From Verrucomicrobiota bacterium JB024 (lineage in GTDB: Bacteria > Verrucomicrobiota > Verrucomicrobiia > Opitutales > Cerasicoccaceae), in NCBI GenBank assembly GCA_030673825.1, contig JAUTCS010000150.1:1-35858 (forward strand): DNA of 35,858 nucleotides, written 5' to 3'. Below the pieces are notes generated by a model that worked only from the letters and a program-made list of their open reading frames with translations, was not told the origin of the DNA and did not search any database. This document shows positions 20,741 to 25,601 of the stretch, one piece after another. A program made the position numbers and the translations under genes. Position 1 is the first letter of the stretch, and each line of letters begins with the position of its first letter.

Positions 20741-21907
20741 TCACGCCGGAGGTAGGCGGCCGATGATGTCGTCGCGGTTGGCGTAAAAGATGGCGTTGTC
20801 GCGGGAAATGAGCCCCTCCTCGTGGAGCTCGAGCAGGCGGCGCTCCATCGTGAGCATGCCGTAGTCGCCGCCGGTTTCCATGGCGGAGTAAATCTGGTGC
20901 AGCTTGCGCGAGCGCATGAAGTTGCCCATCTGCGGGGTGTTGCGCAGGACTTCCATGGCGACGATGCGGCCGTTGCCGTCTGCGCGGGGGACGAGCTTTT
21001 GGCTCAGAACGTAGGCCAGGCTGAAACTGAGCTGCGTGGAGAGCTCGCGCTCGCGCTCGGCGGGGAACATGTCGATCAGGCGGGTGAGCGCGCCGATGGC
21101 GTCGCGGGTGTGCAGCGGGGCGAAGACGAGGTGCCCGGTCTCGGCGGCGGCCAGGGCGAGCGAGGCCGTCTCCAGATCGCGGATTTCCCCGACGAAGATG
21201 ATATCCGGGTCTTCGCGCAGGGCGCTGCGCAGCCCCTGGGCAAAGGTGGACACGTGCCGCCCGAGCTCACGCTGAGAGATGAGCGAACGCTTGCTCTTGA
21301 ACAGGTACTCGACCGGGTCCTCCAGCGTGATGACGCGTCGGGCGCTGCTCTGGTTGATCGCGTCGAGCATGCTGGCGATGGTGGTGGACTTGCCGCTGCC
21401 GGTCACGCCGGAGACGATGACGAGGCCCTGCTGCATGCCGCAGATGTGCTTCCAGACGCGGTCGCTGGGGAAGCCGCACTCCTCCAGCTTTGGGATAAAG
21501 GGCGGCAGCAGGCGGATGACGGCAGCCAGCCCGTCGTTTTCGTGGAAGGCGTTGATGCGGAAATTGTAGGATTTGTCCGCGATGGTGAGCGGGAAGCTGC
21601 TGTCCACGTCGGCCATGGGGTCGTCGCGCATCTGTTTCCAGTCAAACTCGGACAGGAGCGGGTAAACGAGATCTTCGCACAGCTCCTGGGTAAGCCGCTC
21701 TCCCTCGGGCACGCTGTAGAGCTCCTGGTCCATGCGGAAGCGCACGGGCTCACCCGTTTTGATGTGGAAGTCCGAGATGCGCGGCATGCCGTTGCGCATG
21801 TACTCGGGGTCAAAGGCACTGCTGAGCAGGTCGATGATACTGTAGCGGTGCTCGCCGGCCTTGTAGGCCTTCCGCTGGGGATCGTAGCTGTCAGGGGGAG
21901 TAGACAT
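20741..21907 (-). CDS. pilT: PilT/PilU-type twitching motility ATPase
   Basis: A 388-residue secretion ATPase of the type IV pilus retraction group, acting at the inner face of the cytoplasmic membrane. Walker A G-V-T-G-S-G-K-S at 167-174, the Asp box L-E-D-P-V-E-Y near 197, Walker B region D-I-I-F-V-G-E-I-R-D at 235-244, and His box A-E-T-G-H-L-V-F-A-P-L-H-T at ~255-267. The C-terminal M-E-T-G-G-D-Y-G-M-L-T-M matches PilT/PilU. The N-terminus is longer than in standard PilT, nearer to PilU. No other pilus machinery genes lie nearby, although a pseudopilin is encoded about 2.1 kb upstream on the same strand. Confidence 0.92.
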   Translation of the reverse strand: MSTPPDSYDPQRKAYKAGEHRYSIIDLLSSAFDPEYMRNGMPRISDFHIKTGEPVRFRMDQELYSVPEGERLTQELCEDLVYPLLSEFDWKQMRDDPMADVDSSFPLTIADKSYNFRINAFHENDGLAAVIRLLPPFIPKLEECGFPSDRVWKHICGMQQGLVIVSGVTGSGKSTTIASMLDAINQSSARRVITLEDPVEYLFKSKRSLISQRELGRHVSTFAQGLRSALREDPDIIFVGEIRDLETASLALAAAETGHLVFAPLHTRDAIGALTRLIDMFPAERERELSTQLSFSLAYVLSQKLVPRADGNGRIVAMEVLRNTPQMGNFMRSRKLHQIYSAMETGGDYGMLTMERRLLELHEEGLISRDNAIFYANRDDIIGRLPPA

Positions 21908-22876: not shown

Positions 22877-24055
22877 CTAGTTTTGTGTAACCCGGAGCTG
22901 GTAAAAAAACGCCTCGCCGGAAGCCGGTGCGTCCTCCTCGCTCCAGAGGTAAAGTGTGCGGGAGCCGTCCGTGCCGACGGCCTGTACGGATGTGCTCCAG
23001 GTGGCGGTGCCGGTTTTGGTGGCGACCTGCGCCCAGTCGCCGGCGGCCAGATCCGTGGCGCGCCAGATGGCGTAGGTGATGTCCGGGCGCGCCGAGGAGG
23101 GCAGCCCGACGAGGAAGCCCGGCAGGTTGCCCTCTGATGTCGCGACGGGAAGCATGCCTTCAAGGGGTGCCCCCGCCGCTGCGTCGAGGCCGAGGGCGTA
23201 GCGGACGCCGTTGGGAAGGGCGGCGGCGGTGGCGTGCTCGGCGAACCCGTCCGTCCCCGCGCTGTCGAGCCCGGCAGTCCAGCGCCAGTTGTCATACTTT
23301 TCCACTACGAGAGTGGTCATGCGGAAGGTCAGCGCGTACACGCCGGGCTGGGTGAAGGTCCAGTTAACGTGGTCGTGGCTACCCGCAGTCAGGTAAAAAC
23401 AGTCATCCTCATCGATACCGTCGGACGTGGCCATGTACACGGAGGGGGCGGCACCGCCGCTGCCGAAGTCGAAGAGGGCGAATTCTCCCCCGGCGGGTCC
23501 TTCGATGCGCACGAGATCCAGCCGGATAAACTTGTCGGTGGTGTTGGCACCCCGGTCCGCGTCACCGGGGTTCCAGGCGACCAGTTCGTTATTATCATCA
23601 TCGGCGGTGGAAAGCCCCAGGAAGATCGAGTCGCCCGCGCCGACGCTGGACGAGATGTGCCAGAAGCTTTGCCCCGCTGTTGCCCCGATGAAGCCATAGC
23701 CCTGGTCGAGTGCGGCCTGGCCCATGGTGGTCTGGGTGTTGGCGTTGAGGTAGCAGTACGCCGCGTCCGGGGTGTAGTAGAGTTCGGACGCGGGATTGTC
23801 GGGTTCGGAGATATTGGCCGTAGCGAGGGTGGGGGTGCCTTCGCCGCCGAAGTACGAGACGCGCATGTCCACGTGCAGGCTGTCCAGCCGCGTGCGTCCG
23901 GCCACGTCGGTCACGACGCCAAAGTAAAACGTGTGCTCGGCGCTCGTGCTGACGATTCCGGCGGCGTGCGTGGCGCAGGGCCAGGTGAAAAAGGCCGCGG
24001 CGGCCAGGGCAGATATCCGGCACGCCTCGGCCGGGCGGGAGAAAGACGCGTTCAT
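22877..24055 (-). CDS. Choice-of-anchor M domain exported protein
   Basis: A 392-residue exported protein with a signal peptide (about 12-31, A-L-A-A-A-A-F-F-T-W-P-C-A-T-H-A). The core resembles the choice-of-anchor M / actinobacterial surface-anchored domain: S-V-Y-M-A-T-S-D-G-I near residue 207 and H-D-H-V-N-W-T-F-T-Q-P-G-V-Y-A-L-T-F near 229, whose H-x-H-x-N-W box is the family hallmark. The last ~100 residues look like a separate beta domain common in Verrucomicrobial proteins (T-Y-A-I-W-R-A-T-D-L-A-A-G-D-W). There is no sorting tail; it ends Q-L-R-V-T-Q-N. Related domains in actinobacteria lie beside zinc/manganese ABC transporters. Its start overlaps the pseudopilin stop (ATGA). Confidence 0.75.
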   Translation of the reverse strand: MNASFSRPAEACRISALAAAAFFTWPCATHAAGIVSTSAEHTFYFGVVTDVAGRTRLDSLHVDMRVSYFGGEGTPTLATANISEPDNPASELYYTPDAAYCYLNANTQTTMGQAALDQGYGFIGATAGQSFWHISSSVGAGDSIFLGLSTADDDNNELVAWNPGDADRGANTTDKFIRLDLVRIEGPAGGEFALFDFGSGGAAPSVYMATSDGIDEDDCFYLTAGSHDHVNWTFTQPGVYALTFRMTTLVVEKYDNWRWTAGLDSAGTDGFAEHATAAALPNGVRYALGLDAAAGAPLEGMLPVATSEGNLPGFLVGLPSSARPDITYAIWRATDLAAGDWAQVATKTGTATWSTSVQAVGTDGSRTLYLWSEEDAPASGEAFFYQLRVTQN

Positions 24056-24753
24056 GATTCGGGGGGCTTGGCGGGGTTGACACCGCTGGCAAATATCTCG
24101 CGCAGTTCAAGGGCAGTGATGAAGTCCACGTGCGCGTCGGCGTAGAGGTAGTTGGCCCCGCCGCGGTGGCGGTCGGGCTGGATGTCCTGCCGGGCGTAGG
24201 CGTAGGCGTTCGCGCCGACCCATGTGCGCGAGTGCGTATGGTCGCGGCTGATATTGACGCTCAGGTCGTCGGCCCCGGTGAAGACGGTAATCGTCTCGGC
24301 AGGCCGGGGGAGGCGCATGAGGTTGGTGTAGTCTTCCATCACTACAAACGAGCCGGTGGCGAAGTCGTAGTCCTGGTTCACGACGGCGACGTACTCGTTC
24401 ATCACATAGCTGGACAGGCCCGCCTCCAGGCGCTGGTCGGCCTTGGGGTCGCCGGGGCCGATGCGGATCGCGTCCACGTCGCCGGTGTAGGGGGCGAGGG
24501 TGTAGATCCACGACTCGCTGGCGGCGGCGTCGTGCCGGGTCTTCGGGAACTGGCCGTTGTGCGCCTGGCAGTAAAGCAGGAGCCCTGTGCCGATCTGGCG
24601 CAGGTTCGAGGCGCACTTGGTCTGCTGAGCCATTTCCCGCGAGGAGGTTAACCCCGCGTGAATTAAACAGCCGAGGACCGCCAGAATAACCATGGCGGCC
24701 AACAGCTCGACCAGACTGAACCCTGGCCGCCGTTTTTTCCCACCCCGTCTCAT
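24052..24753 (-). CDS. Type II pseudopilin-like protein with H-X9-D ending
   Basis: About 233 residues. Prepilin peptidase site in R-R-P-G-F-S-L-V-E-L-L-A-A-M (cleavage after Gly, Phe at +1, Glu at +5), then a hydrophobic helix and the DUF1559-like body (C-A-S-N-L-R-Q-I-G-T-G-L-L-L-Y). Near the C-terminus, H-R-G-G-A-N-Y-L-Y-A-D-A-H has the H-X9-D-G spacing of processing-associated pseudopilins, with Ala in place of Gly. Start chosen at 24753; the upstream part of the frame is Arg/Pro-rich and overlaps the previous gene. It is flanked by two choice-of-anchor M genes, four bases after one and overlapping the other by four, so the three are one operon. Confidence 0.85.
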   Translation of the reverse strand: MRRGGKKRRPGFSLVELLAAMVILAVLGCLIHAGLTSSREMAQQTKCASNLRQIGTGLLLYCQAHNGQFPKTRHDAAASESWIYTLAPYTGDVDAIRIGPGDPKADQRLEAGLSSYVMNEYVAVVNQDYDFATGSFVVMEDYTNLMRLPRPAETITVFTGADDLSVNISRDHTHSRTWVGANAYAYARQDIQPDRHRGGANYLYADAHVDFITALELREIFASGVNPAKPPES

Positions 24754-24757
24754 GGCG

Positions 24758-25516
24758 CTAGCGGTTGGGCGTCCGACGGCTGCGCGCCAAGCGACGACGC
24801 AGCAGGACGAGGGCAAGCGCGCCCGACCCGGCGAGCCCGGCGTAGGTGGCGGGCTCGGGCACGACCTGGAAGGTGTACGTCGCCGTGTCGCTCTGTTCGA
24901 TGCCCTCAATGGCCGCGGTCACAGTAAAGGTCAGCTCATAGGTTCCGGCCACGGTGAAGCCCCAGTTGGCATGGGCGTGATCGGATGAGTCGAGGTCGAG
25001 GACAAAGGCGTCGGCGGCACTGATCCCATCGACCGTACTCATGTAAAAAGTCGGGCTGAGCCCGTCGGTCCAGAGGGAGAAGTTCCCGCCCTCAGGCATG
25101 GAGGCGCCGGTCAGAGTGAGGGTAAAGGCGTTGTCGTCGAACACGCCGAGCGTGATCTCCTCGCCTCCGATGCCGAGGAAGGGCGCGCCCAGTGCCGCCG
25201 CCCCGCCCGCGCCGGAGTTCGACTGCGGGAGGAACCAGTAGTTCTCGCCCGCGGCGACGCCGATCCCGTCCCAAGCAGAGTCGGACGGGCGTCCGCCGTT
25301 GCCGGAAACAAAGTCGTAGGTGCTGGCGGGGACGCGGATGACGGCCTCGTCCGGCGCGATCTCTCCGGCATCATGCAGATGCAGGTGCAGTTCCAGTTCG
25401 CTGCCCTCGCCCAGGCCGATGTCACCGTGGCCGGTGGTGAAAGTGGTGATCTCCGCCTGCGCGACGGAAAGTGAGAAAAGGGCGCTCAGGCCCGCGATAA
25501 AGATGTGGCGTTGCAT
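24758..25516 (-). CDS. Choice-of-anchor M protein with PEP-CTERM sorting signal
   Basis: A 252-residue exported protein. Signal peptide 1-21 (I-A-G-L-S-A-L-F-S-L-S-V-A-Q-A). A His-rich strand E-L-E-L-H-L-H-L-H-D lies near residue 41-50, and the family box S-D-H-A-H-A-N-W-G-F-T-V-A-G-T-Y-E-L-T-F is near 178. The C-terminus V-V-P-E-P-A-T-Y-A-G-L-A-G, a hydrophobic helix and R-R-R-L-A-R-S-R-R form a classic PEP-CTERM signal recognised by an exosortase. It is the first gene of the three-gene operon and lies just after paired operator-like repeats. The His-rich strand and family context point to metal handling at the cell surface, but this is inferred. Confidence 0.85.
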   Translation of the reverse strand: MQRHIFIAGLSALFSLSVAQAEITTFTTGHGDIGLGEGSELELHLHLHDAGEIAPDEAVIRVPASTYDFVSGNGGRPSDSAWDGIGVAAGENYWFLPQSNSGAGGAAALGAPFLGIGGEEITLGVFDDNAFTLTLTGASMPEGGNFSLWTDGLSPTFYMSTVDGISAADAFVLDLDSSDHAHANWGFTVAGTYELTFTVTAAIEGIEQSDTATYTFQVVPEPATYAGLAGSGALALVLLRRRLARSRRTPNR

Positions 25517-25524
25517 GGGGCGAC

Positions 25525-25581
25525 TAATGCAACTAATATGCGATATCCGTCAAGGCTTTTAATGCAATTGATTTGCGATAA
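25525..25581. promoter_or_regulatory. Tandem near-identical 22-base operator-like repeats before the anchor-M operon
   Basis: Two copies, 25525-25546 and 25560-25581, share TAATGCAA and TGCGATA around a variable AT core (18 of 22 positions identical), 35 bases apart start to start. The second contains the inverted repeat GCAA-TTGAT-TTGC. Size and design resemble Fur/Zur/Mur-family boxes. A TTGACG that could be a -35 box lies between them on the minus strand (25548-25553), so a bound protein would probably block transcription. Confidence 0.55.
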
Positions 25582-25587
25582 TAAAAT

Positions 25588-25601
25588 CTAACTTGCGTTA
25601 G
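25588..25601. promoter_or_regulatory. Short palindrome CTAAC-TTGC-GTTAG
   Basis: A perfect five-base inverted repeat around TTGC, right beside the paired operator-like repeats and sharing their TTGCG word. It may be a third, weaker binding site. No other evidence. Confidence 0.3.

Follow-up and report, generated by a model that had tools for sequence, protein, structure and literature searches.

Three leftward genes (A, B and C) in the window, the 35,858-nucleotide stretch of DNA analysed here, form a single operon behind two 22-bp operators, coupling two choice-of-anchor M proteins with a pseudopilin. We consider it likely that this is a zinc-starvation operon under Zur-type repression, in which A and C would capture zinc and B would act as their dedicated pseudopilin partner. 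The operators resemble sites that lie before predicted zinc-uptake genes elsewhere in the genome, and the pilin and anchor-M genes keep company across related genomes.

Two anchor-M proteins and a pseudopilin in one operon

A and B are separated by a 4-bp gap, and B and C overlap by 4 bp in an ATGA (Table 1), bearing out the three tightly spaced leftward genes that an earlier note had read from the letters. The interval 24052-25601, to which that note assigned the operon, spans A, B and the operators, with C falling outside it. A promoter scan gave 0 sites.

Table 1. Positions of the operators and genes in the window
Feature	Position	Strand	Description
distal operator TATCGCAAATCAATTGCATTAA	25559..25580	(-)	Zur-box-like dyad; 1 mismatch to AWTGCAANNNNNTTGCAWT
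proximal operator TATCGCATATTAGTTGCATTAG	25524..25545	(-)	7 bases before A start codon; 2 mismatches to AWTGCAANNNNNTTGCAWT
gene A	24758..25516	(-)	252 aa; probable signal peptide, choice-of-anchor M domain, PEP-CTERM tail
gene B	24052..24753	(-)	233 aa; dedicated pseudopilin of H-X9-DG/DUF1559 type, DHxH...W signature
gene C	22877..24055	(-)	392 aa; probable signal peptide, choice-of-anchor M domain, C-terminal domain without PEP-CTERM

Both A (97.2 bits) and C (80.7 bits) are members of the choice-of-anchor M family NF038134 (cut-off 55). A ends in a PEP-CTERM tail recognized by TIGR02595 (21.1 bits, cut-off 16) and PF07589 (21.6, cut-off 20.7), and the window's genome holds three exosortase genes, so that A qualifies as PEP-CTERM/exosortase cargo. 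C matches no PEP-CTERM profile, as expected of the second anchor-M protein without a sorting tail that had been proposed; the solubility proposed for this partner is uncertain: C has no PEP-CTERM tail, yet 28 of the 45 anchor-M proteins without a recognized one finish in a [FY]x[RQ][LVWA]-type stretch, a possible alternative domain for attachment or assembly. Residues H30, D32, H180 and H182 of A are invariant in an alignment of 23, and H46 is conserved at 90% or more. The AlphaFold2 model of A (pLDDT 82.6) returned nothing at E <= 0.001 in a Foldseek fold search, its best VIA-align match (Z 6.6, rmsd 3.8 over 135) was tied with unrelated sandwiches, and a PDB sequence search with query A1 gave 0 matches at E <= 0.1. 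Judged from their sequences, A and C are probable zinc-capture surface proteins.

The profiles likewise agree with the reading of B as a type II pseudopilin: it matches N_methyl PF07963 (27.2 bits, cut-off 21.2) and DUF1559 PF07596 (32.8, cut-off 23.3), and it belongs to the H-X9-DG pseudopilins by TIGR04294 (25.2, cut-off 19). It is not the major T2SS pseudopilin GspG (TIGR01710, 25.6 bits against a cut-off of 88.85). The folds nearest to its AlphaFold2 model (pLDDT 92.4) are pilins, PilA4 (Z 5.6, rmsd 3.8 over 120) and PulG (Z 4.8, rmsd 2.9 over 87), matches that show a common arrangement only, because Z lies under 8. With the other H-X9-DG/DUF1559 pseudopilins of planctomycetes and verrucomicrobia B has in common the N-methylation motif and the H-X9-DG end; it differs from them in that B-type pilins form their own group in the tree, are tied to anchor-M genes and carry a DHxH...W signature, present in 33 of the 37 BLAST-cluster pilins and absent from all 25 paralogues in the window's genome (drawn from 30 of its 48 PF07596 matches). 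Eight residues (D171, H172, H174, W178, D190, R195, D206 and H208) are invariant in an alignment of 16 B-type pilins. Among the 25 other H-X9-DG-type pilins of the genome, eight adjoin a same-strand PEP-CTERM open frame, as defined by a pattern of our own.

The earlier note had staked its idea on the families being neighbours in relatives, and they are: same-strand pilin/anchor-M neighbours (n=36) occur at 34 of 58 loci, in 31 of 44 genomes and in 5 families. Chance neighbourhood of the two is ruled out by this recurrence and by their genome-wide co-occurrence. For the BLAST-cluster counts, G102 and G200 were dropped from the 46 anchor-M genomes, leaving 44; 8 of 35 named loci (L168, L171-L173, L178, L181, L182, L186) are duplicate records of genomes already used, and genes in relatives were called by our own script, which missed the anchor-M gene in L165 and L166.

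An operator in common with predicted zinc-uptake genes

The paired operators anticipated upstream of A are present as two operator-like repeats 35 bp apart, centre to centre. A pattern merged from both matches only these two places, matches that exist by construction, and 0 in 100 shuffles. The next-best match to them in the window's genome has 1 mismatch and is flanked by a FUR-like gene on one side and, on the other, by an operon of ZnuA-ZnuC-ZnuB type whose ZnuA has a His-rich stretch. A dyad with 0 mismatches stands ~0.1 kb ahead of a CobW-family gene whose match to the ZigA zinc metallochaperone (611.4 bits) exceeds the cut-off of 600; the paralogue of that gene has a weaker dyad (2 mismatches) in front of it, and a FUR-family gene lies between the two. 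One of the genome's four best dyads (C143:2031, 1 mismatch) has no zinc gene beside it as judged by eye, the manner in which the sites on C143, C6 and further sites in the genome were assessed.

The dyad recurs in the relatives. As AATGCAA-N5-TTGCATT, a consensus picked with the window's sites already known and identical to the ZigA-gene site, it reaches >=11/14 matches upstream of 45 of the 73 anchor-M/pilin operon heads, compared with 8 of 294 control heads (p = 4e-30). Its spacer of 5 accounts for these 45 heads, spacers of 2-4 and 6-9 giving 0 to 9, and 200 scrambled dyads reached a mean of 1.4 heads and a maximum of 18. It falls below 11/14 matches in 14 of the 53 loci having such a head, and in relatives it also precedes MerC-type and ZnuD-type genes. 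The operon and predicted zinc-uptake genes thus have an operator in common, in the window's genome and in its relatives; from its likeness to the znuABC-type and ZigA-type sites, together with the enrichment of the dyad in relatives, the operon is very probably Zur-controlled.

Gene neighbourhoods point the same way. The fetched stretches of 58 anchor-M loci include FUR genes in 11, a ZnuD-type receptor in 9, MerC in 5 and CobW in 3, and in one operon (G368) a pilin gene is followed by an anchor-M gene and then by a ZepA-family gene (NF040463, 243.4 bits against a cut-off of 75), with no dyad at 10 or more matches. These neighbours and the operator support the metal-capture reading of the earlier note, and support narrowing the predicted metal to zinc.

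The pseudopilin and the outer-membrane step

Under zinc-replete conditions a Zur-type FUR repressor would occupy both operators and keep the operon off; in zinc shortage the operon would be expressed along with the genes of the znuABC-type importer and of the ZigA-type chaperone. Both anchor-M proteins would then be exported, and their conserved His, Asp and Glu residues would bind zinc on the far side of the cytoplasmic membrane, A being processed by exosortase and C being without that tail. B, dedicated to the anchor-M proteins, would be built into a T2SS/type-IV-pilus-like pseudopilus that either moves them through or onto the outer membrane or keeps them in place at it, and captured zinc would thereby reach the periplasm and the ABC importer. 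For B in particular, we put the chance that it is the export or assembly partner of the anchor-M proteins at about even.

The distribution of B bears on its role. Of the order's 372 genomes, 46 have anchor-M genes, and among the matches listed (down to 84 bits, at most 7 candidates per genome being scored), B-type pilins occur in 32 of these 46 and in 0 of the 326 others; the profile used includes members from four searched genomes besides the window. ZnuD-family receptors adjoin anchor-M genes in some relatives, where they would do the outer-membrane step, and the ZnuD type linked to anchor-M genes, which scores over 600 bits, is found in 9 of the 14 anchor-M genomes without B and in 0 of the 32 with it. 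At E <= 1e-40 no ZnuD-like gene was found in 21 of the 32 B genomes, nor in the window's genome (163 contigs, 95% complete), which has a single TonB plug-domain match; against the receptor profile, the ZnuD of the PDB scores 362.5 bits and the next match 122.2. Genus g35 is itself divided, two genomes (G033, G049) having ZnuD without B and three (G215, G294, G301) having B.

This alternation, with the eight invariant residues and the absence of DHxH...W from the 25 paralogues, speaks for a reading in which B itself handles zinc: the conserved DHxH...W, R and DxH residues would make up a metal site, and the pseudopilus bearing it, short and retractable or else spanning the periplasm, would take zinc from A and C across the envelope and so replace ZnuD. 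We regard it as unlikely. Exclusion was complete in the neighbourhoods (ZnuD at 0 of 31 with pilin versus 9 of 13 without), but an absolute exclusion fails genome-wide, as 11 of the 32 B genomes, G215 and G301 of genus g35 among them, keep a more distant ZnuD-like gene; moreover, kinship among the genomes inflates the counts, H-X9-DG pilins are numerous with a C-terminal H and D not known as zinc-specific, and porins could let zinc pass. A direct zinc relay by B is a doubtful proposal, and the broader idea of a receptor-independent outer-membrane route, with a Zur-controlled metal-binding pseudopilus in place of TonB-dependent ZnuD in a large part of Verrucomicrobiota, is to us similarly improbable.

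Somewhat less probable again is that the operon is a general surface-display cassette, the pseudopilins of B's family pairing with many PEP-CTERM cargoes and the metal control being incidental. The eight pilins adjoining PEP-CTERM frames speak for it, and the confinement of B to anchor-M genomes, among the matches listed, speaks against it; it would also leave a zinc role possible and is compatible with, not opposed to, the zinc-starvation explanation.

Least probable is that the operon belongs to another FUR-family regulon, for manganese or iron, and its proteins capture that metal: FUR-family subtype is not readable from sequence alone, the genome has 7 FUR-family genes, the one beside the CobW genes scores higher for Fur (62.4) and PerR (56.2) than for Zur (49.6, cut-off 167), none of which reaches its cut-off, and for the ZnuA-type protein a manganese model comes out on top (208.7 bits, ahead of zinc AztC with 200.7, both again below cut-off). 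Against it, the best matches of the importer's permease and ATPase are the zinc models AztB and AztA (under cut-off), the dyad precedes the ZigA gene, which is over its cut-off, and in relatives MerC-type and ZnuD-type genes, and one operon includes a ZepA-family gene.

Known zinc systems and the place of the pseudopilin

ZepA (All3515) of Anabaena binds zinc, is Zur-repressed and mediates uptake; it is an exported PEP-CTERM protein, reported in the PVC superphylum, whose neighbours include COG0523, TonB receptor and FUR genes, and its manner of zinc delivery is stated as unknown (PMC10957091). The word 'pilin' has 0 occurrences in that paper (PMC10957091). A resembles ZepA in being a PEP-CTERM protein with Zur-type control, which for A is predicted. 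Neither A nor C is a ZepA/all3515 homologue, NF040463 giving no match at E <= 0.1, and none of 44 PEP-CTERM anchor-M proteins, against 1 of 45 other anchor-M proteins, carries the ZepA motif H-X2-9-H-[FY]-H.

A (48.9 bits) and C (35.7) both match the Corynebacterium anchored-repeat family TIGR03769 (cut-off 30.9), a type of domain that CmrA itself presumably carries, and neither is the actinobacterial transporter-associated surface protein TIGR03773 (57.1 and 43.2 bits against 190.3). The corynebacterial comparison set, anchored-repeat proteins TIGR03769/03770/03772/03773 and CmrA (PMC6711530, PMC2823685), differs in being Gram-positive and sortase-anchored. As described in the available portions of PMC6711530, Zur of C. 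diphtheriae represses anchored-repeat genes and cmrA, and an anchored-repeat ABC importer and surface-anchored proteins are under its control; in the available portions of both corynebacterial papers we found no pseudopilin partner.

The earlier note knew of no described system of this make-up, and that stands in part. Zur-regulated surface zinc proteins have already been described, in ZepA (PMC10957091) and in corynebacteria (PMC6711530), which leaves the pseudopilin partnership as the one new element; we found no description of such a partner, or of its partial alternation with ZnuD, in the literature searched.

To our knowledge, how zinc passes through the outer membrane in Gram-negative bacteria without a ZnuD-type receptor is an open question. 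Among the matches listed for the 372 genomes, B occurs only with anchor-M genes and never with the anchor-M-linked ZnuD type, which makes it a testable candidate for that step. The operon is a hint that zinc may reach the cell by a route not yet described, in a genome that yielded no outer-membrane zinc receptor of the usual kind, and, more generally, that the H-X9-DG pilins of Verrucomicrobiota may be partners for particular cargoes.

A pseudopilin that travels with anchor-M proteins

Three leftward genes follow one another: an anchor-M gene with a PEP-CTERM tail (A), a pseudopilin gene (B) and a second anchor-M gene (C); 4 bp separate A from B, and B and C overlap by 4 bp. Two anchor-M domains were found in the 4.6-Mb genome, one in A and the other in C. 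Anchor-M (NF038134) occurs at E <= 0.001 in 46 of 372 genomes of the order (41 over the cut-off), and we compared 62 stretches around such matches, calling genes with our own script and clustering proteins with BLAST. Pilin and anchor-M genes are same-strand neighbours 36 times; these pairs fall in 34 of the 58 loci, come from 31 of the 44 genomes and span five families. The pilin is upstream in 30 of the 36 pairs; 22 of the 30 anchor-M proteins downstream of a pilin lack PEP-CTERM. The order A-B-C recurs in one locus of the window's genus (L058) and in two from Roseibacillus, of another class (L192, L193), and named records widen the range to Spartobacteria, Geminisphaera and Planctomycetota (L170, L199), the B-family gene of L199 lying one gene apart from its anchor-M gene.

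B has the N-methylation motif and the H-X9-DG end that mark it as a pseudopilin. Its profile is two-peaked over the 372 genomes: 37 matches, in 32 genomes, reach at least 178 bits, and the best of the rest scores 116 bits. Every one of these 32 genomes is among the 46 with anchor-M, and none of the 326 genomes of the order without anchor-M gave a match of that strength in this search. Of the 37 pilins that make up the BLAST cluster, 33 have a DHxH motif followed by W, versus none of the window genome's 25 H-X9-DG-type paralogues, one of which has DHxH without the W. A tree of these 37 and 25 proteins, whose bootstrap had not settled, places 34 cluster pilins in one group (support 88/72) free of paralogues; outside it lie the diverged pilins of L092 and L109, beside weak anchor-M matches, and L108_14, which has no adjoining anchor-M gene. 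Judged from sequence, pseudopilin B appears to be a dedicated partner of the anchor-M proteins.

The L092 and L109 pilins share neighbouring gene families (c81-c90) in their genomes, G102 and G219, and these loci may hold a second form of the system. Elsewhere in the window's genome, a same-strand PEP-CTERM open frame adjoins 8 of the 25 other H-X9-DG-type pilins, as if such pilins were paired with cargoes. A DsbH/DUF255 thioredoxin-like gene adjoins the pilin in four loci of one family, f24, and genes related to the window's PilT/PilU-family ATPase gene are also nearby in G020, of the window's genus.

The model of A (pLDDT 82.6) is predominantly of beta strands, and fold comparison gave it no significant match; that of B (pLDDT 92.4) is pilin-like (best Z 5.6). 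In A, an alignment of 23 shows four invariant residues (H30, D32, H180, H182) and at least 90% conservation of H46; in B, D171, H172, H174, W178, D190, R195, D206 and H208 are all invariant in an alignment of 16. We infer that particular residues among these may bind metal.

Features noted in the window, in other contigs (C) of its genome (G000) and in compared locus stretches (L)
Feature	Location	Remark
PilT/PilU-family ATPase gene	window 20741-21907	same strand as C, two genes downstream of it; TIGR01420 371.8 bits, cut-off 319.1
Short FUR-like protein, 124 aa	G000:C19:23591-23965 (L025:5592-5966)	directly before znuABC-type operon
Weak dyad, 2 mismatches	G000:C6:5758-5776 (L126)	near start of His-rich gene
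Diverged pilins	L092:7241-7858; L109:6057-6674	each adjoining a weak anchor-M match
Spermidine-synthase-domain membrane protein, ~850 aa	L066:6890-9427; L074:7089-9659; L098:7499-10036; 10 more loci	present in 13 of the 58 anchor-M stretches
DsbH/DUF255 gene	L074:12032-14320; L077; L090; L096	
H-X9-DG-type pilins with PEP-CTERM neighbour	L138, L140, L144, L147, L148, L151, L152, L163	G000

Probable zinc-type operators

Two 22-bp repeats lie upstream of A, and a pattern drawn from them matches the whole genome 13 times at up to two mismatches versus twice for a reversed control; its best match outside the window's own sites (one mismatch) has a FUR-like gene on one side and a ZnuA-ZnuC-ZnuB-type operon on the other. 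The genome's sole perfect copy of the dyad AATGCAA-N5-TTGCATT is upstream of a CobW-family gene scoring as a ZigA zinc chaperone (611.4, cut-off 600), whose paralogue has a weaker dyad (two mismatches) upstream, and a FUR-family gene sits between these paralogues. Beside one of the four best dyads (zero or one mismatch), at C143:2031, no zinc gene was recognised by eye. Weak sites alone mean little, because at up to two mismatches the genome holds 24 dyads versus 13 for the reversed pattern. The FUR-like protein of contig C19 lacks a CxxC pair, the FUR protein of contig C4 differing, and the His-rich gene of contig C6 resembles a cation-diffusion transporter on visual inspection.

Across relatives, the dyad (identical to the ZigA-gene site, and picked with the window's sites already known) matches at 11 or more of 14 positions in 45 of 73 anchor-M/pilin operon heads versus 8 of 294 controls, which are heads with upstream regions that overlap none of those of zinc-type genes; spacers other than N5 gave 0-9 anchor-M/pilin heads. 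Counted by locus, 39 of the 53 with such a head have it and 14 do not. At the same threshold it precedes c4-cluster TonB receptors (6 of 9 heads), FUR genes (5 of 9), CobW genes (3 of 4, two being the window genome's own), MerC-type genes (2 of 2) and a membrane spermidine-synthase-like gene (5 of 9). In L074 the last encodes a PF01564 protein matching NF037959 (fused MFS/spermidine synthase; 70 bits, cut-off 40), possibly part of a zinc-binding small-molecule pathway. The operators upstream of A are very probably of the zinc type.

Alternation with ZnuD and the link to ZepA

The c4 receptor belongs to the ZnuD family (PDB 4rdr, 362.5 bits; next 122.2). Members above 600 bits occur in 9 of the 14 anchor-M genomes without B versus none of the 32 with it (p = 2e-6, relatedness ignored), and any ZnuD-like gene (E <= 1e-40) in 12 of 14 versus 11 of 32 (p = 0.003, relatedness again ignored). 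Among 27 further named loci, those absent from the earlier counts, 12 have a B-family gene, 8 a c4-type receptor gene and none both. The switch is also seen within the window's own family (in G094) and within a single genus, g35 (G033 and G049 versus G215, G294 and G301), in which G215 and G301 retain a ZnuD-like gene scoring about 468 bits. A single TonB plug-domain match was seen in the window's whole genome.

The family of ZepA, a known Zur-repressed zinc-binding PEP-CTERM protein (PMC10957091), is found by NF040463 in two of the 372 genomes, G287 and G368, both of which also have anchor-M and B. In G368 the pilin and anchor-M genes are followed by the ZepA-family gene (243.4 bits, cut-off 75), and no dyad of at least 10 of 14 matches lies near this operon; in G287 the gene is on a contig without anchor-M and B.

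Among the matches listed from the open-licence literature, judged by title and abstract opening, none dealt with a pseudopilin that takes part in zinc acquisition. The argument that the operon serves zinc under Zur control, drawn from sequence comparison, is strong but indirect, and the system is of a kind already known and of a new make-up.
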